This document shows, piece after piece, positions 1,430 to 17,100 of a DNA stretch of 36,569 nt. This DNA comes from a virus: the IMG/VR virus record IMGVR_UViG_3300035698_014920, positions 1 through 36,569 of that record; one strand, written 5' to 3'. The position numbers and the translations under genes are program-made. Within the stretch, counting starts at the first letter, position 1. Each line of letters starts with the position of its first letter. Under the pieces are notes generated by a model. The model was not told the DNA's origin, did not search any database, and saw nothing but the letters and a program-made list of their open reading frames with translations.

Positions 1430-3046
1430 TTAGTCCGGTATGTCGTAATTGGCCGATATTTTTACATCATCGATCACAAAAGGCCCGTTTGTTTCGTAGT
1501 CGGGGCTGCACCCGATATGGACCTCCGATGCCGCCGAGGTCCAGGGTACATCTAGAAAATCATTGCCGTCGCTCTCACTGTCAACATGCAGATACCAGCG
1601 CCCTGTCAAAAAATCCCATTGGCACACGATCAGATGATATTGCCCTGCAATCCAGTCGCTTACTACCAGATATTCAAACGTCACCCCGGTAGCGTTTCCA
1701 TACTCAAAATAGATAGCGCCTGTCCTCTGGAACAGGCCGAGCACAGCGGTGCCGGGGCCATGTAAATGCATTATATAATGGCGTGGGGAGGGAGGTATGT
1801 CTGTTATGTCTACCAGCAATTTCACCCTTAGCGATAAATGGCCGACCGGGGTCATCTGATAGGGATATATCAGCAGGCCGGCAGCTCGTGATGTTGCCGT
1901 ATACGACGTGCTGCAACAGCATTTTTCGAGCTGGGCCGCATCTATCCATATATGGCCCGGGCTCGGCGTACCGTTTGCCCGCACAGCACAGCGGGCCTCG
2001 ACGGTGCCAGATGGGGCCACCAGGCCTTGGTATGCGTATCTTGCCCACTCAGTCGATAATGTGATGAGCAGGGAATCCTCCCTGATTAGGGTATCCCCTG
2101 ATGACAGCCAGAAAATAACGATTTTGAATCCGTCGGCCTGGGTAAGTGTGTCCGTTTTAAGCTCCGCCGCGAACGACACAACATCTGCAGGCGAAATTAA
2201 TATATCCGGCAAAACGACCCCTGCGTCGGACACTTCGTCTCCGTCCCACTCCACATCCAGAGAATAGTCTCCCTCATATACGCCCACTGTCTCGATGGCC
2301 AGCGTAGTATTCCCGATGGCGCTCCACGATGTTGTGTCCCCGCTTGCCAGACCAGGGTTGCATGCGCTCAGCAGGTTGGTCGTGGCAGGCTCCACATCGA
2401 CCCCACCCCCATCCCATCCGTCGTCACGCAGGACAGTGCCGATTGCGGCGGAAGGGTCTCTCGAAAGGAGGTCCTCCACCAGGGTACCATTGAATGTACA
2501 CCAGAACATATAGTCGGAATATGTATAATTACAGAGCGTGTGCGCCGGTTTGAGGCTGTTGAACAGCCCCTCCAGGCTCGGCTCGCCCGTCCACCAGGAG
2601 AGATGCTCGCCGCACGTGGACTCGCCTACGCGGAAATAATATACCTCTCCGAAATCGGCGACAAAAACCGTTACCAGCCACACCCATATCCCGTCAGCTC
2701 CATACGTGCCATCGTCGGCACCGAGCTCTTCGATGGCGATGATCATCCCCATTTCTGCGGCGAGCGCTATGAAATAGGGGATTGATAACCCGCCTTTAGA
2801 CCGTATCTTTTTAACCACGGAATCCCTGCGCTGCTGGAGGATAGCCGTGGAGTCTGGGGTGAGGCTGCAGACACGCTCCCAGAATAAGATCATCTCGTCA
2901 GTGGTATCGGGGAAACACTCCGCCAGGAGCTGCTCTGCGCGGGCCATTACTGCGTCGAGATGCGCTCCCTCGATCGTTGCATCACCATCATACACACCGT
3001 CGAGCTCCACCGGCATCAGTGCATTTAAAACGTCTTTATGTGACAT
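1430..3046 (-). CDS. gp48-like baseplate/tail protein fused to carbohydrate-binding-like domains
   Basis: This 538-aa protein overlaps the gp47 gene by 11 bp; the ATG at 3046 is chosen because the conserved N-terminus starts there. Residues 1 to about 177 fit the DUF2313/YmfQ (Mu gp48) family: an acidic helical start, then LTPDSTAILQQRRDSV and a later GTYGADGIW region. Mu gp48 is a protein of roughly that size alone. Here it continues into about 360 extra residues. Residues about 220-375 begin with a TTNLL-type motif and resemble a jelly-roll carbohydrate-binding module. Residues about 390-538 resemble a LamG/concanavalin-like sandwich ending in VIDDVKI. I infer a baseplate protein carrying receptor-binding domains next to the tail fibre gene. 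Confidence 0.75.
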   Translation of the reverse strand: MSHKDVLNALMPVELDGVYDGDATIEGAHLDAVMARAEQLLAECFPDTTDEMILFWERVCSLTPDSTAILQQRRDSVVKKIRSKGGLSIPYFIALAAEMGMIIAIEELGADDGTYGADGIWVWLVTVFVADFGEVYYFRVGESTCGEHLSWWTGEPSLEGLFNSLKPAHTLCNYTYSDYMFWCTFNGTLVEDLLSRDPSAAIGTVLRDDGWDGGGVDVEPATTNLLSACNPGLASGDTTSWSAIGNTTLAIETVGVYEGDYSLDVEWDGDEVSDAGVVLPDILISPADVVSFAAELKTDTLTQADGFKIVIFWLSSGDTLIREDSLLITLSTEWARYAYQGLVAPSGTVEARCAVRANGTPSPGHIWIDAAQLEKCCCSTSYTATSRAAGLLIYPYQMTPVGHLSLRVKLLVDITDIPPSPRHYIMHLHGPGTAVLGLFQRTGAIYFEYGNATGVTFEYLVVSDWIAGQYHLIVCQWDFLTGRWYLHVDSESDGNDFLDVPWTSAASEVHIGCSPDYETNGPFVIDDVKISANYDIPD

Positions 3047-4238
3047 TGATCGCCCCCACGCGGATGACTTCATTGTTGTCCGCTTCCAGGTCGGCAGCAG
3101 GCGTGCTGACCACGGCATTGACTGCTCCGTTATCCAGGGCTATCTGCTGCAGCTTGGATATAAAAAGGGTCTGTCCCGGGATGAGCGTGTCCATATACGC
3201 CTCGATGTCGTCTGATATTGCGGTGAGGTTCAGGTCTGTCCCGGTGGTGACCATCGTGACGGCCTGGGACACTACTGAGGGAGGCAATACCCGCACCGAG
3301 ATGTTGCCGGGGCCGACAGGCCGGACCGTATCTATATAATCCTTCGCCTGCCGGCACAGAGATGTGATCTCGTAATCCTGGGCAGTGTCCGTGAAAATAT
3401 CTGCATCGAGTGCCAGTTGAGTCTCGCTGTCAACGGCCGTGACGTTCGCCTCTTTGCTGGTTGTGGTGTTGGTAACCTTATCCCCTATGGTGACGCCGTC
3501 AGTATCGAATGCGCCGCCTGAATCCACGAGCTTGTCAGAGGTGGCCGAGGTGTTTGTGCCGGCATACGGGATGATAACTATGTAATCCTGGGCAGTGTCC
3601 GTGAAAATATCTGCATCGAGAGCCAGTTGAGTCTCGCTGTCAACGGCCGTGACGTTCGCCTCCACGCCACTTGTGATGTTCTGCACGATATCACCGGCAG
3701 CCACGCCATCGGTGTCGAAGGTGGCGCCTGTATCGACGAGTTTATCGGACGTGGCCGAGGTGTTTGTGCCGGTCAGATAATTATATGATGATGGTGTCTC
3801 CGATCCTGTGCCTGCCTCGTTTGCCTGGATTACGACATCCACCGTTCCGATCCCTCGCTCCAGGGGAAAGCACCAGGCAGCATATACATTATCGATCGAG
3901 AGTGCCCACTGCTCATAATCTGTCTTATTGCCTCCTGCAGGCGGGGTGCGGATGTAGGTCAGCACCCGGGCGAGCAGGGCCGCGTCCGTCTCACAGGAGG
4001 TGCGGGTGATCCCGTAGACCCAGGCATGATGATCCAGGGCAGCAGTGTCGGCCGTGTCCGGATAGATCTGGTCTGCAATATAGTCCTGATATTTATAAAG
4101 CCCCCACAGTGCTGATGCCATGCATGCGGCCTTTATGAACAGGAGCGAGCCCTGGGATATGTCTGCAGCAGGAAACTGGTTTTCATAGTCTGTCAGGATC
4201 CCGTTCAGCAGTGTGTCAAAGTCCTTTTGAAAACTCAT
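3036..4238 (-). CDS. baseplate J-like protein, Mu gp47 homologue
   Basis: This 400-aa protein belongs to the baseplate J/Mu gp47 family, which joins the wedge to the hub. Visible hallmarks are the N-terminal helix with DISQGS, the DHHAWVYGITR segment and the AALLARVLTYIRTPPAGGN region, followed by the C-terminal PPSVVSQAVTMV and IPGQTLFISKL stretches. It starts 4 bp inside the end of the gp46 gene. The unusual part lies at residues about 157-296: two copies of a 70-residue unit starting GTNTSATSDKLVD, inserted into the middle of the family fold. Without the insert the protein would be a more typical length. The core assignment is firm; the role of the insert is unknown. Confidence 0.88.
   Translation of the reverse strand: MSFQKDFDTLLNGILTDYENQFPAADISQGSLLFIKAACMASALWGLYKYQDYIADQIYPDTADTAALDHHAWVYGITRTSCETDAALLARVLTYIRTPPAGGNKTDYEQWALSIDNVYAAWCFPLERGIGTVDVVIQANEAGTGSETPSSYNYLTGTNTSATSDKLVDTGATFDTDGVAAGDIVQNITSGVEANVTAVDSETQLALDADIFTDTAQDYIVIIPYAGTNTSATSDKLVDSGGAFDTDGVTIGDKVTNTTTSKEANVTAVDSETQLALDADIFTDTAQDYEITSLCRQAKDYIDTVRPVGPGNISVRVLPPSVVSQAVTMVTTGTDLNLTAISDDIEAYMDTLIPGQTLFISKLQQIALDNGAVNAVVSTPAADLEADNNEVIRVGAINVT
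3351..3770 (-). repeat. tandem 210-bp in-frame duplication inside the gp47 gene
   Basis: Two adjacent units (3561-3770 and 3351-3560) each encode about 70 residues. Within them, 3372-3452 and 3582-3662 are identical over 81 bases except for one substitution. The beginnings of the units have diverged more, so the near-identical 3' parts suggest recent duplication or gene conversion. The period is a multiple of three and keeps the frame open. Confidence 0.9.
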
Positions 4239-6230: not shown

Positions 6231-7491
6231 AGATCCTCACAGCGCCCTTGACGGCATTGGGCTTTGCAATGGTGTTGACCGCACAGATGCGGTCGCCATA
6301 CTGATATGGCAGGCCGTGCTGTGCACAGAGCAAGTGCAGGGGCGTCTCGTCCGCCACGACGATGGTGATGAGGCGCTCGTATTCGATCTTGACCTGGCGT
6401 GCGTGGTCGGTCAGGGTGCGGGCCAGGGTCTTCAGTGCCGGCATGGTCCGTGTCTCGGCGACGGCCGCTGCAATGGCAACGTGGGCCGAGGATAACGATG
6501 TTTCTATCTGTGTGACCGTGAGCAGCTCAGGGCTTGTCTCGGTGCTTATATAGCGGCCCAGGGCATCAAAGCTCTGCCGGTTTTCGAGTGTGCGAGCGGT
6601 CTGGCGGTCGACCTCGTCCGCTGCATAAAGATAGCCCAGGTCGAGAGCGGCCCGCGATGCCGTGGCGATCCGGACATGCTTGACCATGCTTGAGTCAATC
6701 CCTGCCTCCAGCGCTGTCATGCCGTCCCGGAACGAATCCATAAACCGGGCAGGCGCGTCCTTGTTGTCCGCATACAGCAGGCTGTAGCGTTCGGCCGTTC
6801 GAGCGAGCGCGCCGATCACCCTGCCGGGCAGGGTCGTGCCAAACTCGATCGCGGCAATCAGGGTGTTTGCCGGCTGGGCAATGTCGGAGAGCTGCTCTTC
6901 CAGTTCGCCGACAAAGGTGGCGACCGTTTTCGTATATTCCCGGGCCGCGGACGATATCCCGGTGAACTGCCCGAGGATCCCCGTGTCCGGATCAAGGCTC
7001 ACACCTAGTATGGTTGCGGCCTCGGCGCCGAGTTCGTCGCGCATATCCGTTGCAAATTCCGCCTTGTGTTCGTCGATCGCGCTTTGATATGCGGCCTCGA
7101 CCTCGCTGTCCACGTCGGGCCAGCGGCCAGGGTCGGTGGCAGTCTTCAGCGTTTCGATGAATGTGATGTCGATCTCGGCCGTGAGCTGCCGGTCGTCATG
7201 ACGAACGCCTAGGCGTTCGATGCAGCCAGACATGATGCCGTATTTGGGATGGACCAGCTCGAACAATTCGCGACTGGCCAGGTGATCCAAAAATGCGCGG
7301 TGCCCCTCATAGGTGGCATCGTAGAAATAACAGCGGATCCTCACCTCGCGGGCCTTGAGGCCCATATCCTCCAGGAGCGCGCCGCCTGCATACGGGATCT
7401 CGTGCCGCGCGATCGCCTTTGAGAGTGAATCGGAGATGTCCTCGATCTCCAGGGCATACCCGTCGATGGCGGCTGCATATTTATCGGCCAA
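6220..7491 (-). CDS. tail/DNA circularisation protein, Mu gpN-like
   Basis: This 423-aa protein fits the Mu N family (DNA circulation N-terminal domain, gp43-type). The first about 95 residues carry the diagnostic pattern IARHEIPYAGGALLEDMG, REVRIRCYFYD and FLDHLASRELFELVHPKYG. A long helical middle follows and the C-terminus (LHLLCAQHGLPYQYGDRI) resembles a LysM-like region. It lies between tape measure and gpP as in Mu, overlapping each by 11 bp. In Mu, N is needed for tail assembly; any role in DNA circularisation is only a family label. Confidence 0.85.
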   Translation of the reverse strand: MADKYAAAIDGYALEIEDISDSLSKAIARHEIPYAGGALLEDMGLKAREVRIRCYFYDATYEGHRAFLDHLASRELFELVHPKYGIMSGCIERLGVRHDDRQLTAEIDITFIETLKTATDPGRWPDVDSEVEAAYQSAIDEHKAEFATDMRDELGAEAATILGVSLDPDTGILGQFTGISSAAREYTKTVATFVGELEEQLSDIAQPANTLIAAIEFGTTLPGRVIGALARTAERYSLLYADNKDAPARFMDSFRDGMTALEAGIDSSMVKHVRIATASRAALDLGYLYAADEVDRQTARTLENRQSFDALGRYISTETSPELLTVTQIETSLSSAHVAIAAAVAETRTMPALKTLARTLTDHARQVKIEYERLITIVVADETPLHLLCAQHGLPYQYGDRICAVNTIAKPNAVKGAVRIYVR

Positions 7492-9142
7492 AGAATGCCC
7501 CCCTGTTTTCCACGCTCAGTTTTGCCCCCATATTGTCCACTGTGCTGATGGTGCGCCCGTGCTCGTCTATCTGGTTTATAATGTTTATCTCCGGCTTGAT
7601 CTCGGGCTGCTCCCTGTCGTGCAGCACATCGTACAGCCATGACCCCAGCGCCCCTGAAGGATCGCCGAGGGCCTTATTGATGGCCGTGGTTATGCCGTAG
7701 GCTGCCAGCCCCGTGGCGGCTGCCACGGCAACGGATGTGCCCAGGCCTGCGCCGGTCATAGGGACTGCCTTGGTGAGAAATTGTTTTGCCAGGGTCTTTT
7801 TTGCCACACCCGGCACATTGAGCCCCCCGGTGTAGGGATTGGCTACTATTTTGGAAAGAGATGGCGCCGCGCCTGCCGGAACCAGCCCCTTGAGCGATTT
7901 GCCCATGCCGACCAGGCCCGTGATCGCTCGGGTGCCCAGGGCGACCCCGCCCAGCCCCAGCAGCCCCCACAGCCCGCCTTTTGTCATGCTCGGGTGCTTG
8001 TTGAGCTTCTTGAGCATCGGGTTGATGGTAGAGAGCGGGCCGGAGATCTGCTCGTCCGAGAATTTCTTCAGCTCGCGGTTGAGGTCGCCGAAGCTGACCG
8101 CGGCCTGTTCGCTCCAGAACGCAAAATCGCGCATGATCATGGTGCCGTCGCCGCCTGCGGCTGCCAGGGCGTCAAACTCCCGGAAGTCGCCAAATTGCTG
8201 GTATGATGCGGCCATCGGGGTTATGGCCCGGATCGATTCTTCACCGAAGATTTTTGCGAGCTTGATCGTGTCGCCCTTTGTGCGCCTCACGATCTCCTTT
8301 ATGACCAGGTCAAAGTCCTTGAGCACGGTGCGGCCTGCCTTTTTTGAGGCCGGGGCGTCTATGATGGAGAATCCGGTAAGCCGTCGGATCTCTTTTTGCT
8401 TTGAGATAATATCTGCAATGGTGCGCTCCACGGCCGTGGCTGCCTGCTCCGATGTGCCGGTGCCGCGTCGGGCGATCTGCAAAAATGCGCCGAATGTGCG
8501 CATGCCCTCAACACCCTGGATATTGAACCTGCTCCCTGCCGATAGCAGCCGCTCAAATAGAGAGGCCATGTTCTGCAGGGTAAACGATCCCTTTTTGCCC
8601 TGGGCGTCGAGGATGTCAAACACGGTGATAATCTCGCCCGATGTTATGTGCATCTTTTCCTGCAGGTTGCTCGCAGTGGCCCCGATGTCGGCCATGCCCG
8701 CGCCCGTGGCCGATGCCACGATGCCCATGTTCTTGAGCGATCCGATCGCATAGCTGAAATTGCCGGTGCGCTCCACAATGGCCTCGATGCCTGCGAGCAG
8801 GTTCTCGGGGTTCTGCTTTGTCGCGTCCCCCAGGTCAAAGAGCTCTTTTTTCAGCGCCAGCATCTCTTTTCCGCTCAGGCCCGCCTGGATGGCAAGCCTG
8901 GCAAGCCGGGCGTCAAACTGTACTATTCCCTTGCCCAGCATGCCCAGGCCGGCCCCTGCGATCAGGCCGCTAAACCGGGTGAGATAGCGTGAGGAGACCC
9001 TGTTGATGGAGCGGCCGACATGGGCAAAGGTTCTTGTTGTGCGGGTCTTGAATTTGCCCAGAGAGCGGGTCGTGCGGCCCAGGTCGGACCGCACGCGCGA
9101 TGTGTCGGTTGCAAAAACGACTCTGGTGTTATAGTCGGTCAT
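7481..9142 (-). CDS. tail tape measure protein
   Basis: This 553-aa protein belongs to the TP901-type tape measure family. It has a basic N-terminus, an early Gly-rich hydrophobic segment (LIAGAGLGMLGKG), the conserved region around residues 85-200 (AGLSGKEMLALKKELFDLG, GAGMADIGATASNLQ) and a second hydrophobic segment in the last third (GLLGLGGVALG, SVAVAAATGLAAYG). Such proteins set tail length at roughly 0.15 nm per residue, which would give a tail of about 80 nm. The ATG overlaps by 2 bases the stop codon of the -1 frameshift extension of the gene upstream, which supports that extension. Confidence 0.9.
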   Translation of the reverse strand: MTDYNTRVVFATDTSRVRSDLGRTTRSLGKFKTRTTRTFAHVGRSINRVSSRYLTRFSGLIAGAGLGMLGKGIVQFDARLARLAIQAGLSGKEMLALKKELFDLGDATKQNPENLLAGIEAIVERTGNFSYAIGSLKNMGIVASATGAGMADIGATASNLQEKMHITSGEIITVFDILDAQGKKGSFTLQNMASLFERLLSAGSRFNIQGVEGMRTFGAFLQIARRGTGTSEQAATAVERTIADIISKQKEIRRLTGFSIIDAPASKKAGRTVLKDFDLVIKEIVRRTKGDTIKLAKIFGEESIRAITPMAASYQQFGDFREFDALAAAGGDGTMIMRDFAFWSEQAAVSFGDLNRELKKFSDEQISGPLSTINPMLKKLNKHPSMTKGGLWGLLGLGGVALGTRAITGLVGMGKSLKGLVPAGAAPSLSKIVANPYTGGLNVPGVAKKTLAKQFLTKAVPMTGAGLGTSVAVAAATGLAAYGITTAINKALGDPSGALGSWLYDVLHDREQPEIKPEINIINQIDEHGRTISTVDNMGAKLSVENRGAFFGR

Positions 9143-9719
9143 CTCCGCACCTTATGGGTTGCCCCTTTTTTGATGTCTTTTGCATACAGCTCCATGCTCA
9201 GGATGTAGAGCCACTGTCCGTCTGTGAGATCTCTGGCGGGCAGGCCAAAGAGATAATGAGCCGTCTCGCGGTGGCAATATCTGAAATACTCAAGGCCGTC
9301 GTCCCCGGCGTTTTTTTTACCTCGGCGATCAGGTCCTCGACCTCCTTGTCCGTCATTTTATCCGGCCTCGGTGAGCACTCCTTTTCAAGCGCCAGGTATT
9401 CCTCCGCCAGGATATCCTGCTCGTCTGTCGTTATTGCTGCCTTGAAATCGTTGATGGTTTTTGCAACCGGTTGCCCGGGGTTTTCCGGGTCTGACAGGGC
9501 ACGGTAGAGCATCTGCACGGTGCGCTCGTCCTCGTACTCGTCCGCGGTCATGAGGTTCGGCTCGATACCGGCCTGTTTAAACGTGTTCTCGGCCGCATAG
9601 CGCGCCTGAGAGATCTGCGCGCGGGAGAGTACTGTGATGCCCACCCCCTGGTCGGTGCCCGGCCAGGAGATGCGCTTTATGTTTTCCTTGCCGGCTTTGA
9701 GTTTTTCCAGCAGGGTCAT
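9139..9719 (-). CDS. tail assembly chaperone, -1 frameshift long form
   Basis: Reading the first 136 codons in frame and slipping back one base on the A run at 9311-9318 gives a product of about 193 residues. The new segment (57 codons, 9312-9142) begins NAGDDGLEYFRYCHRE and continues TAHYLFGLPARDL, GQWLYILSMELYAKDI and KKGATHK before a TGA that overlaps the tape measure ATG. It is protein-like, with aromatic and charged residues and no stop, and it abuts the tape measure gene exactly. Tail chaperone frameshifting is a conserved feature of long-tailed phages. The slip itself is inferred. Confidence 0.75.
9198..9719 (-). CDS. tail assembly chaperone, short form (Mu gp41-like)
   Basis: This 173-aa acidic protein lies between tail tube and tape measure, where contractile and siphophages keep a tail assembly chaperone pair. 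It starts MTLLEKLKAGKENIKRISWPG and its ATG overlaps the tube stop (ATGA). Codons 134-136 contain a run of eight A residues. Downstream of that run the zero frame reads only about 37 more codons and ends in low-complexity SQTDSGSTS, whereas the -1 frame stays open to the next gene. The short product is therefore probably the G-type partner of a frameshifted pair. Confidence 0.8.
   Translation of the reverse strand: MTLLEKLKAGKENIKRISWPGTDQGVGITVLSRAQISQARYAAENTFKQAGIEPNLMTADEYEDERTVQMLYRALSDPENPGQPVAKTINDFKAAITTDEQDILAEEYLALEKECSPRPDKMTDKEVEDLIAEVKKTPGTTALSISDIATARRLIISLACPPEISQTDSGSTS
9311..9318 (-). promoter_or_regulatory. slippery A8 site for -1 ribosomal frameshift
   Basis: On the minus strand the zero-frame codons are GTA AAA AAA ACG, giving a heptamer of the form A AAA AAA that lets both tRNAs re-pair one base back. 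A GC-rich stretch (CGCCGGGGACGACGGCC) follows within a few bases and could stall the ribosome. The -1 frame downstream is open for 57 codons. Confidence 0.78.
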
Positions 9720-10069
9720 TCCGTTACCTTCCCGGTCGCGCCGAGAGTGATGGCGCGGGTGGTCTCGTTTTCACCGTCCGCCTTTTCATCGCCCACCGTG
9801 AGCGTGCACACGCCGGTATAGGTGACGCGCTTGCCGTTTTCATATTCCAGCGTCAGGCGACCGTCTTTGACCGCTGTCCAGTCAAACTCTCCGGAGTACG
9901 GCACCACATACTCGACCTCCACGCCATAGCGCGGGGTTGCCGCCATGAACCCGGTCTTGTTCATCAAGTTGACCCGCTTATTGAGCTCGACCTCCTTGTC
10001 GGTCGCGCTCTTGAAATCATCGATCTGAACGCCGTTGACGTCCAGCAACACTCTGCTGAGATATTCCAT
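9716..10069 (-). CDS. tail tube protein, Mu gpM-like
   Basis: This 117-aa protein follows the sheath gene, in the Mu M position. Family-like features are the LDVNGVQIDDFKSATDKEVELNKRVNLMNKTGFMAATPRY start and the alternating beta strands YSGEFDWTAVKDGRLTLEYENGKRVTYTG, typical of Hcp-like tube folds. The length matches Mu M. A good AGGAGG ribosome-binding site precedes the ATG, fitting the high expression a tube protein needs. Confidence 0.85.
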   Translation of the reverse strand: MEYLSRVLLDVNGVQIDDFKSATDKEVELNKRVNLMNKTGFMAATPRYGVEVEYVVPYSGEFDWTAVKDGRLTLEYENGKRVTYTGVCTLTVGDEKADGENETTRAITLGATGKVTE

Positions 10070-10084
10070 AATTTTACTACCTCC

Positions 10085-11497
10085 TTAGAGGATCAGATCT
10101 ATGCGGCCGGCAAAGACGTGCAGCCCGTTGACCACATCGGCCGGGATCTTGGCATTGAGCCGGTTGGCATCGGTAGCGGATCGCTCCACCACCAGTGCGT
10201 CCTTTTCATCGTCCACGTTTTCCACGATCTCAAGCTCTTCGAGAGCATAGAGCACGGAGAGCAGCTCCGACCGCACGCTTGAGACTACCCGCGCGTTGAG
10301 CTTTTCCCGCGGGAAACGCAGTGCAATGCGCTCTCTGCAGGCCTTGCGCACATAGTCGAGCGTGCGGATCGTGGTGATGTCCAGCATGGACACATCCGAG
10401 ATACTCGATGCATTGAGCGTGTAGGTGGTTATTGCCCTCACGATCTGCACATCACCGCCAGGACCCACCTCGCACGGGGCCACGCCTGCCCACAGGCAGG
10501 TTTCCTGCTCGGTGCGGGAGAGCCGGCTGGCGATAGCGGGCGCGTGGATCCCGGTGAGAGCCAGTGTGTTAAGCGGCCGGGCCGGGTCCTCCTCATATGC
10601 CAGGATCGCCCCGAACGCGGCCGCGATCTCGCAGTCGAGCGACCTTGTGCCCCGCACAAACGGGCAGACCGCGCGTTCGTGGTTGATATTGCCGGCCAGG
10701 GTGGTGCCGGTGGCCAATACGCCGGAATAGCCATACACGCCCACGCCCGGGCGCTGTTCGAGCGGGCCGGATACCAGGTCCAGGTGCGTCGTCATCAGGC
10801 CGATCGAGGTGGCATCGTTGAGGCTCAGCGCAATGATGTCATACTGCGTCGCCACGCATGCCGCCAGGGCGTTTGTCGCATCCGGATCGGTTGCTCCGGA
10901 TGCCATGTCCACGATCACGGCCGCGCAGCAGGAGTTTGCCGCCTCATAGCTCACCGCAATGGTGTTGCCCTGGATGCCGTCGTTTTTCGCGGTGAGCGTG
11001 ACCACGGCAGCGTCAGCGGCCGCGGTTACGGGCAGCGATGGTGTGGCGGTGATCTCGGCTGCCAGGGCCGTGGCGATGACGCCCACGGCGTCGGCGATGG
11101 TGACCGCGATGCTCACGCTCTGGTTGCCCACCCACAGGGTCAGGGTGCCGGTGGCTGGAGCGGGATCGCTGATGGTGACCGTTCCGGTGGCTGCCACGCC
11201 TGCACCTGCATCGTCCATCGCGCAGATGCTTAGCGCGACATAGGGGTTGGCATCGATCGCGGCCTTGGCCATTAAGTGCGCCTGCGAGCCATCCCCGAAA
11301 TATTCCGCAGCCTCCACGTCCGAAAAGACCTCGGTCGGGACAAGCTCGGCCACGGATCCGCCCGTGGTCCTTTGCGCGATGATGAGCAGTTTCTGCCGGT
11401 TCGTCGGCAGGGTCCTCACGGCCAGCGCCGTGTTGAACTCAAAGTATTTGCCCGGCTTCCGGATGGACGACGGGATATCAGTGAATGTTATGGTCAT
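10085..11497 (-). CDS. contractile tail sheath protein, Mu gpL-like
   Basis: This 470-aa protein matches the Mu L sheath family. It opens with TITFTDIPSSIRKPGKYFEFNTALAVRTLPTNRQKLLIIAQR, the conserved N-terminus, and ends with a C-terminal domain containing RKACRERIALRFPREKLNARV and DVVNGLHVFAGRIDLIL. Between them lies an inserted beta-rich domain at residues about 105-195 (many VTI, TLT and AAE segments), and the TTLAGNINHERAVCPFVRG segment follows. The start overlaps the gp38-like gene by 4 bp. Its presence establishes a contractile tail (myovirus morphology). Confidence 0.92.
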   Translation of the reverse strand: MTITFTDIPSSIRKPGKYFEFNTALAVRTLPTNRQKLLIIAQRTTGGSVAELVPTEVFSDVEAAEYFGDGSQAHLMAKAAIDANPYVALSICAMDDAGAGVAATGTVTISDPAPATGTLTLWVGNQSVSIAVTIADAVGVIATALAAEITATPSLPVTAAADAAVVTLTAKNDGIQGNTIAVSYEAANSCCAAVIVDMASGATDPDATNALAACVATQYDIIALSLNDATSIGLMTTHLDLVSGPLEQRPGVGVYGYSGVLATGTTLAGNINHERAVCPFVRGTRSLDCEIAAAFGAILAYEEDPARPLNTLALTGIHAPAIASRLSRTEQETCLWAGVAPCEVGPGGDVQIVRAITTYTLNASSISDVSMLDITTIRTLDYVRKACRERIALRFPREKLNARVVSSVRSELLSVLYALEELEIVENVDDEKDALVVERSATDANRLNAKIPADVVNGLHVFAGRIDLIL

Positions 11498-15358: not shown

Positions 15359-15934
15359 TTACTCACCTCCCTTGGTTTCGATCTCGTATTCATGCGCGAG
15401 ATCAGGGTTATCCTGCTGTACCTGGGCGAATGCCTGGGCAAAGGACTTCTCCTTGTTGTCGGTCATGTGTTTCCTGGTCAGGGTGCTGAGCTTCTCACCC
15501 GCCGTGTTTCCGCCGGCACTCGTGTCCGTGCCCCTCTTGGCGATCTCGCCGAACTCGACCACCTTGTCGATCTCGGCCAGGAACGCTTTCATGAAATCGA
15601 GCTGGCTGGTCTTGCCTGCGCCCTCGGCAAATTCGATTGTTGTCTCATGGCCAAGAGAGGCCATGAAGTCCTGCAGGCCGAGCTTTTCCCATGCCGGCAG
15701 GAGCTTGCCGTCCTTCTTGCGTGCCTCGCAGAACGCCGCAATCTCGCCTGCTACGGCCTTGCCCCGGGCTTCTTTGTTTCTCTGTGCAAACTCGTCCGCG
15801 GCCTCTTTCTTGCCTGCCTCTTTTGCGGCATTGAGATCCGCCTCGCTGAACTGCCCGCCCGGAGAAGCGGTATCGACCTCCAGGCCATCCGGCAGCTCAT
15901 CCACTTTTTTCTTGAGCAAATCTTTGAAACCCAT
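15359..15934 (-). CDS. internal in-frame scaffold protein, Mu gpZ-like
   Basis: An ATG at 15934, in the same frame as the protease, follows an almost ideal AGGAGGT site at 15939-15945 with 4 bases between. It would give a 191-aa protein starting MGFKDLLKKKVDELPDG, rich in K, E, A and D with long helices, as expected for a scaffold that is removed before DNA packaging. Mu makes gpZ in the same nested way. The start site is seen; its use is inferred. Confidence 0.72.
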   Translation of the reverse strand: MGFKDLLKKKVDELPDGLEVDTASPGGQFSEADLNAAKEAGKKEAADEFAQRNKEARGKAVAGEIAAFCEARKKDGKLLPAWEKLGLQDFMASLGHETTIEFAEGAGKTSQLDFMKAFLAEIDKVVEFGEIAKRGTDTSAGGNTAGEKLSTLTRKHMTDNKEKSFAQAFAQVQQDNPDLAHEYEIETKGGE

Positions 15935-16564
15935 AGATACCTCCTGTTTTTTTTCTTTTCCTGCATAGGAGCTAAGCGGTACCTCTTCCGGTACGCTCGC
16001 TCCCGCCTCTTTTATGTCATCGATGTCCCAGTCCCTGATGATCTTGTCCGCCTCGTCGGCTCCCTTTTCCTCGATGAGCCAGTCGCGCAGCCTGCGGAAG
16101 ATCCGGGCGATGGACTCAAAGGCCCATGACTCGCCGAACTCGATGGTGAGCGCCTCATCGTCCTGCGCAAACGCCACATCCTTGAGCCCCTTGACCGCAG
16201 GCGGCACCGCACCCAAAAACCCGATGTGCTTGAGTTTGTTGCCGGGCAGGAGCGATATGGAGCGCTTCTTGAACCGCCCGTCTTTCACCATATCCTCGAA
16301 CTCGGGCATGACATCCTTTGCCTTGGCAAACAGAACTCCGCCTTCAGCCTTGAGGCCCTCTGTCCAGCCGTAGGCCGGGGCGTTGATTTTGGGATGACCC
16401 ACCACGAGGGGTGCCTCGTGCTCCGCAGGGTCGTACCCGGCTGCGATGGCATCGATATCCTCGGCGGTAAAAATCAAGGTCTTCCCGTTCATGGCCGTGT
16501 GCGTTCCGCTTCGGAATACCTCGAACCAGTCTGTGAGCCCTGCGAATTCAAACTTTTTCCCCAT
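15359..16564 (-). CDS. prohead protease with scaffold domain, Mu gpI-like
   Basis: This 401-aa protein is the Mu I-type maturation protease fused in frame to scaffold sequence. The ATG at 16564 follows GGGAGGAAAT and is preferred over an upstream ATG without a site. The protease part spans residues 1 to about 180: FTAEDIDAIAAGYDPAEHEAPLVVGHPK (His57 in VGHPK) and KKRSISLLPGNK (Ser102/Ser104), then LKHIGFLGAVPPAVKGL, as in Mu-like proteases with a His-Ser catalytic pair. A variable linker follows, then residues from about 211 form a charged helical scaffold. In Mu the scaffold Z is made separately from an internal start of the same frame. Confidence 0.88.
   Translation of the reverse strand: MGKKFEFAGLTDWFEVFRSGTHTAMNGKTLIFTAEDIDAIAAGYDPAEHEAPLVVGHPKINAPAYGWTEGLKAEGGVLFAKAKDVMPEFEDMVKDGRFKKRSISLLPGNKLKHIGFLGAVPPAVKGLKDVAFAQDDEALTIEFGESWAFESIARIFRRLRDWLIEEKGADEADKIIRDWDIDDIKEAGASVPEEVPLSSYAGKEKKQEVSMGFKDLLKKKVDELPDGLEVDTASPGGQFSEADLNAAKEAGKKEAADEFAQRNKEARGKAVAGEIAAFCEARKKDGKLLPAWEKLGLQDFMASLGHETTIEFAEGAGKTSQLDFMKAFLAEIDKVVEFGEIAKRGTDTSAGGNTAGEKLSTLTRKHMTDNKEKSFAQAFAQVQQDNPDLAHEYEIETKGGE
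15939..15945 (-). promoter_or_regulatory. internal ribosome-binding site for scaffold Z
   Basis: AGGAGGT on the minus strand, preceded by a run of A (transcript AAAAAACAGGAGGTATCT then ATG), lies inside the protease reading frame. It is as strong as the sites before independent genes in this window and decides the separate scaffold start at 15934. Confidence 0.75.
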
Positions 16565-16583
16565 ATTTCCTCCCTTGGCGAAC

Positions 16584-16646
16584 AAAAAAAGCCGCCCAGG
16601 GCAAAAGGATCTTTGCCTTGGGCGGCCCGGTTTTTCCGATACCGCG
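16584..16646 (-). terminator. intrinsic terminator with conserved leader, copy 3
   Basis: Reading on the minus strand, a leader GCGGTATCGGAAAAACCGG is followed by GCCGCCCAAGGCAAAG, a short loop, its near-perfect complement and seven U residues (plus-strand A run 16584-16590). The leader is shared almost exactly with 24131-24188 and 27819-27880, but the stem here has a different sequence of the same shape. It separates the small zinc-type gene from the protease gene. Between 16647 and 16679 there is a further CCCGGG...CCCGGG hairpin and nothing else. Confidence 0.8.
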
Positions 16647-16679: not shown

Positions 16680-16883
16680 CTATACTATCTCTTCAAAAAG
16701 GATGCCTCCGTCGCCCTCATAGGGCTCGGTGTGTATATGTTCGTGGGCCAGGATCTCGTGCGGAATGCCGCCCGGGAAGGCGTCACAGTTGCCGTCATCG
16801 TGATAGTGCCTGCATACGTGACACTGGATCTCGCCGAAAAGATCTTCGGCGAAGTCTTTGTCGTGCTCGGGGTTATATGACAT
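16680..16883 (-). CDS. small Cys/His protein, paralogue 2 downstream of the MuF gene
   Basis: This 67-aa protein starts at the ATG at 16883, after AAGGAAAAG, 11 bp inside the preceding gene. It has Cys21-x2-Cys24, then Cys33 in CDAFPGGIPHEI, a His-rich AHEHIHTEPYEGDGG and an FEE end. The AFPGGIP, H-x(2-3)-PYEGD-x-G and FE blocks are shared with its upstream neighbour, so the two are tandem paralogues. The Cys/His layout suggests zinc binding. I do not know the function; an immunity or accessory role for the adjacent MuF extension is a guess from position. Confidence 0.72.
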   Translation of the reverse strand: MSYNPEHDKDFAEDLFGEIQCHVCRHYHDDGNCDAFPGGIPHEILAHEHIHTEPYEGDGGILFEEIV

Positions 16884-17100
16884 CTTGCTTTTCCTTGTCC
16901 TGCGGCTCGAACCGGAGGCCCAGGTCTCCTTCATACGGCGAGCGGTGGTCGTTTTCCCCCAGCCATATCTCCAGAGGGATGCCTCCCGGAAAGGCCGCGC
17001 AGGTTCGCTCGGGTCCGGGGATCACATGAGTGCAATAAGAGCAGACCGCGCTATATGCCGGGATCTCCAGCTCCTTGTCAATAACTGTTATCACTGCCAT
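16873..17100 (-). CDS. small Cys protein, paralogue 1 downstream of the MuF gene
   Basis: This 75-aa protein starts 10 bp inside the end of the MuF-like gene, after AGGGAAG. It has Cys20-x2-Cys23 (CSYCTHV), then Cys34 in CAAFPGGIPLEI, a GENDHRSPYEGDLG block and an RFEP end. Residues after the first Cys pair match the next gene block by block. Translational coupling to the MuF gene suggests production in proportion to it. No function is known to me. Confidence 0.74.
   Translation of the reverse strand: MAVITVIDKELEIPAYSAVCSYCTHVIPGPERTCAAFPGGIPLEIWLGENDHRSPYEGDLGLRFEPQDKEKQDVI

Follow-up and report, generated by a model that had tools for sequence, protein, structure and literature searches.

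The stretch of viral DNA examined here (36,569 nucleotides, IMG/VR record IMGVR_UViG_3300035698_014920; hereafter the window) carries a Mu-like gene set, with PHROG matches to a transposase, a MuB-like protein, a terminase, and sheath, tube, tape measure and baseplate hub proteins. Its tail genes follow the order sheath, tube, chaperone, tape measure protein (TMP), and the chaperone thus lies between the tube and tape measure genes (Table 1). Near the 3' end of the chaperone ORF, a run of eight Ts on the plus strand corresponds to A8 on the coding minus strand, read in the register GTA AAA AAA ACG (9320-9309). The zero frame then terminates at 9198 after ...SGSTS*, whereas the -1 frame stays open over 9357-9139, 15 codons of it upstream of the slip site. 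The 57 codons that would be read after a -1 slip encode NAGDDGLEYFRYCHRETAHYLFGLPARDLTDGQWLYILSMELYAKDIKKGATHKVRR. A first-pass annotation had proposed a -1 site on this A8 run, followed by 57 open codons whose TGA overlaps the tape measure ATG, and our analysis bears it out on each count: the coordinates of the site are right, the codon count is correct, and the TGA (9141-9139) does overlap the ATG (9142-9140).

Table 1. Tail genes of the window and parts of the chaperone locus.
Feature	Position	Strand	Support
Tail tape measure protein (TMP)	7481..9142	-	phrog_973, E 1.7e-27
Stop codon (TGA) that ends the extension and overlaps the TMP ATG	9139..9141	-	
-1 frame extension, T-like domain, 57 codons	9142..9312	-	conserved domain in all relatives
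End of the unshifted product past the slip site (37 zero-frame codons and a stop); overlaps the extension	9198..9311	-	
Tail assembly chaperone ORF in the zero frame (G-like product; 173 aa from an ATG)	9198..9719	-	N-domain conserved in 24 relatives
Slip site (A8), with the heptamer A AAA AAA at 9318-9312	9311..9318	-	same alignment position in 25/25
Chaperone N-domain through the slip codons, 136 aa, common to both products	9312..9719	-	25-sequence alignment; model
Tail tube protein, upstream of the chaperone	9716..10069	-	phrog_185, E 6.8e-10
Contractile tail sheath, Mu gpL type	10085..11497	-	phrog_165, E 4.2e-159

Three further features of the window deserve mention in their own right. 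A putative protease gene (15359-16585, minus strand) contains, at 15932-15954, an A8 run followed by CAGGAGGTAT and an in-frame ATG (MGFKDLLKKK...), likely an internal start for a scaffolding protein; such an internal start has been described for Mu. At 16680-17100 on the minus strand, the products of two adjoining short ORFs resemble each other: both are small, have paired cysteines and contain the motifs AFPGGIP and EPYEGD/SPYEGD. The pair is probably a tandem duplication. Finally, a baseplate J-like ORF (3036-4238, minus strand) holds a repeated segment, GTNTSATSDKLVD...ALDADIFTDTAQDY, present twice in tandem.

An open -1 frame is weak evidence by itself, since in the genes of this genome about 31% of codon boundaries are followed by a -1 frame open for at least 57 codons; the evidential weight for the slip site comes instead from its conservation. 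A single-sequence search with the fused protein found no match in viral contigs, genome contigs, Pfam or PHROGs and gave chance-level matches only in NCBIfam; a search of phage records with ORF1 found no match, and a tape measure search of viral contigs returned no relatives. The entry route was the neighboring tube gene, for which a three-tube alignment led to 50 loci. Eight of these (six distinct), found by the tube gene alone with the chaperone unused in the search, carry the window's chaperone type. In each of the eight, an A8-A10 run of the same phase precedes the extension, which is in the -1 frame. Querying with the extension then added more viral contigs, a phylum-wide genome search added one further sequence, and a search with the fused alignment added three MAG contigs (Deltaproteobacteria, Nitrospirae and one labelled "bacterium"). 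With near-copies removed, the final set consists of 24 relatives plus the window, 25 sequences with a median pairwise identity of 36% and a maximum of 72%; tube, chaperone and TMP stand in the expected order in those relatives whose flanks are on the sequence.

The pattern nnA AAA AAA A occupies one alignment position in all 25 sequences, with A8 in seven of them (the window and six relatives), A9 in seventeen and A10 in one. The frames of the N-domain and C-domain stand in a -1 relation in every case, and no sequence has an in-frame fusion. The codon ahead of the two lysines is GTA, CTA, TTA, ATA or GCA and so ends in A throughout, even though A-ending codons are mostly rare at these loci. 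Given the codon use of each locus, the joint chance of an A-ending codon plus AAA AAA in all 25 is ~1e-43, and that of the A-ending first codon alone is ~1e-22, both figures treating the sequences as independent irrespective of their relatedness and hence somewhat overstating the significance. Neither a broken A run nor a stop in the -1 frame, the two findings in relatives that the first-pass annotation had named as telling against the site, occurs in any of the 24 non-redundant relatives. Within the window's genome, moreover, the A8 at 9311-9318 is the only one of four coding-strand runs of seven or more As to lie in slip phase; a second A8, at 15947-15954, is out of phase.

The extension is itself a conserved domain, FGxPAxxLTxGQWLYIL...TYxVxR, present in all relatives. 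Where the extension overlaps the zero frame, in its first 26 codons, conservation is highest in the -1 frame (mean BLOSUM62 score 2.10, identity 44%), ahead of the zero frame (1.09, 34%) and the third frame (0.57, 29%). Across the 650 codons of the overlap, the -1 frame contains no stops and the third frame 45, and the divergence of the -1 frame is greatest at its third codon positions. The zero-frame tail past the slip site runs to 26-42 codons in all 25 sequences.

The N-domain common to both products was modeled with AlphaFold (mean pLDDT 88). The closest named phage protein to this model is the HK97 tail assembly chaperone 2OB9 (Foldseek TM-scores 0.54/0.66, the latter by target length; probability 0.99, E 0.085, identity 14%), and BFVD matches include several proteins annotated as tail assembly chaperones. 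The model is thus suggestive of a tail-chaperone fold, with matches to solved structures that are weak in E-value (best E 0.055). HK97 itself has a long non-contractile tail, whereas the tail predicted for the window is Mu-like and contractile.

Taken with the gene position, these observations make it highly likely that the gene is a tail assembly chaperone of the phage lambda G/GT type, with a predicted programmed -1 ribosomal frameshift. We infer slippage at a rate that would leave most ribosomes in the zero frame, to stop at 9198 and release the 173-aa chaperone, with the ribosome itself as the slipping agent. In a minority of cases, the lysyl-tRNAs on the two AAA codons would shift back by one base along A AAA AAA (9318-9312) and pair anew, and the slipped ribosome would then read the 57 codons of the -1 frame to yield a 193-aa "G-T" fusion, ending at the TGA that overlaps the tape-measure start. 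By analogy with lambda, for which the roles of the two chaperone products have been described (PMC5009743), the shared N-domain would coat the tape measure protein and the extension would recruit tail tube subunits. The slip site is a bare A run, because it has neither a conserved downstream structure nor a correctly spaced Shine-Dalgarno element: the mean z for downstream RNA structure is 0.33, 0.15 and 0.07 for 40, 60 and 90 nt (control 0.06), and a search for a correctly spaced Shine-Dalgarno stimulator at the site found none as a conserved feature. Beyond the heptamer, then, nothing ribosome-specific is seen.

That bareness invites consideration of the RNA polymerase as the slipping agent, which would add one A (or drop two) on the A run, so that normal translation of the changed transcript produced the fusion. 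Nine As or Ts are enough for efficient slippage by bacterial RNA polymerase (PMC5009743), an A11 run causes it to slip in tssM (PMC4256274), and reporter frameshifting climbs with the length of the A run, from 10% at A7 to 40% at A9 and 63% at A11 (PMC3711429). The runs in this family are 8 to 10 long, never interrupted and lack a ribosomal stimulator. A AAA AAG, a known slip heptamer, is used in none of the 25 sequences and the eighth A is invariant, which would fit the need for an unbroken A run and suits the polymerase equally well. A productive transcriptional slippage site would have a homopolymer of about nine or more and mRNAs of heterogeneous length; the seventeen A9 runs and the one A10 run reach that length. 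Against polymerase slippage, the run in the window and in six relatives stops at A8, and its phase is fixed. No A9 or A10 run has lost the first A of the heptamer, the third base of a rare A-ending codon, even though eight As would be left if it were gone; a tandem P- and A-site slip needs this base, and a simple requirement for a length of eight would not. Tail assembly, moreover, calls for only a little fusion, below the usual yield of long A runs; the chaperone:fusion ratio in lambda is about 30:1 (PMC5009743). On balance we consider ribosomal -1 tandem slippage the best explanation and transcriptional slippage unlikely. A ribosomal -1 slip and a single polymerase-inserted A yield the identical peptide, ...EVKKNAGDD..., and the detection of extension peptides by proteomics would therefore prove the product rather than the mechanism.

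The remaining alternatives carry next to no probability. Translation of the extension as a separate gene, from its own start or by reinitiation, could draw on the 15 open codons upstream of the slip site in the window, but it leaves the conserved A run unexplained and is largely refuted by the absence of start codons: no ATG, GTG or TTG precedes the conserved extension core in the -1 frame of 19 of the 25 sequences (the window and 18 of 24 relatives), and the few found in the others are at unrelated positions. Homopolymers are prone to indel errors and the window is a metagenome contig, and one might accordingly suppose a sequencing or assembly error concealing a single true frame, or else a dead gene with a decayed extension; this is refuted by the same two frames recurring, never fused, in 25 independent loci, among them three bacterial MAG contigs and a further genome, and by runs of 8, 9 and 10 all keeping the -1 relation because neighboring codons compensate. 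Mere chance, a functionless A run where the -1 frame happens to be open, might appeal to how commonly that frame is open and to the second A8 in the genome, and is refuted in its turn by the out-of-phase position of that A8 and by a site absolutely conserved, and an extension conserved at the protein level, across 25 sequences of such low median identity.

We return, then, to a programmed ribosomal -1 shift and its place among known systems. The likeness to lambda G/GT extends to the position between tube and tape measure, an in-register A AAA AAA in all 25 sequences, a -1 extension without a start of its own, and two products with a shared N-domain, whose modeled tail-chaperone fold, given its weak E-values, lends support rather than proof. 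The window's family differs in using the heptamer A AAA AAA A and in that its fusion is predicted from sequence. According to PMC5009743, and to Xu et al. (2004) as relayed in PMC2628397, -1 is the majority mode for the tail chaperones of tailed phages, with the -2 shift of Mu as the exception (PMC2628397, PMC5009743, PMC4378225). The suggestion in the first-pass annotation that a -1 site in a Mu-like tail would be a variant thus stands with respect to Mu only: the site does differ from Mu's, but its direction is the usual one among tailed phages. A -1 site in the tail assembly genes was proposed earlier for another group of transposable phages, the D3112-like siphophages, although there the proposed sequence is T TTT TTC and the tail is flexible and non-contractile (PMC4378225).

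Mu gp41 occupies the same place in a homologous tail module, and the short KTYxVxR motif at the C-terminus of the window's extension recurs in the second ORF of gp41-type relatives (hhalign probability 88.9, E 2.4e-6), a hint that this end of the protein contacts the same partner in both. The frameshifts themselves are different, since the second ORF lies always in the -1 frame in the window's family, on an A run, and not in the -2/+1 frame reached in Mu by a -2 shift, presumably on GGGGGCGA. Homology between the N-domains was also considered and rejected (hhalign probability 0.45%, E 0.13, 9 columns).

The tube-related loci of gp41 type offer an observation of their own. In them the +1/-2 frame carries the second ORF, which ends in KTYxVxR, and at about 25 distinct loci (L003:1591, L004:3837, L016:4645, L042:4646 and ~20 more) an in-phase TTT CGA/CGC sits at the ORF overlap. 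CGA is found at the site in 19 of 25 such loci as against ~1.8 expected; the loci were picked for TTTCG, and the TTT itself is thus no independent test. The sequences look like a conserved +1 frameshift site, UUU CGA/CGC, apparently undescribed, as a limited literature search found no paper describing it. The proposed event is a slip of tRNA-Phe from UUU onto UUC ahead of the slow CGA codon, which is the way in which the +1 shift of influenza PA-X occurs. Seven gp41-type loci without TTT CGA/CGC (L014, L030, L032, L041, L043, L044 and L047) have junctions that, judged from their translations, look like TTT CCG, TTT CAA or a T run, possible variants of the +1 site. In phage Mu (L092), Vibrio phage martha 12B12 (L006) and Shewanella phage MuM16-2 (L008), the chaperone ORF overlap contains GGGGGCGA, presumably the Mu -2 site. 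With -1, -2 and +1 sites, related tails would thus employ three recoding modes. A further locus (L057:1406-1947) has a chaperone outside the window's family, with a KKK stretch where its second ORF follows in the -1 frame, and an A-run -1 site may therefore have arisen more than once.

Two more far-reaching readings can be named. In one, the unbroken A8-A10 run, which lacks a stimulator and has no A AAA AAG variant, is a transcriptional slippage site, and the G:GT ratio of these tails is set in the RNA polymerase instead of the ribosome. In the other, broader one, homologous Mu-like tails exchange non-homologous chaperone cassettes, and the type of recoding travels with the cassette: -1 for the A run, -2 for GGGGGCGA and a probable +1 for UUU CGA/CGC. 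We regard these readings as tentative and rather doubtful.

The window's chaperone family is recognized by none of Pfam, PHROGs and NCBIfam, and our literature search, whose incomplete coverage makes absence a weak argument, found no description of it. The site is real, and a programmed slip on A8 very probably produces a longer tail-assembly helper protein. A -1 chaperone frameshift is the usual route in tailed phages, and this case joins a known type. What it adds to the Mu-like contractile tails, for which Mu's -2 shift has until now been the known case, is a chaperone family that appears not to have been described and whose recoding site is fully conserved. Gene callers will cut the chaperone short in every such genome, and both the fusion and its 57-codon domain deserve annotation. 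Comparison with the gp41-type neighbors provides a natural set for tracing how one recoding mode gives way to another in a constant tail machinery.
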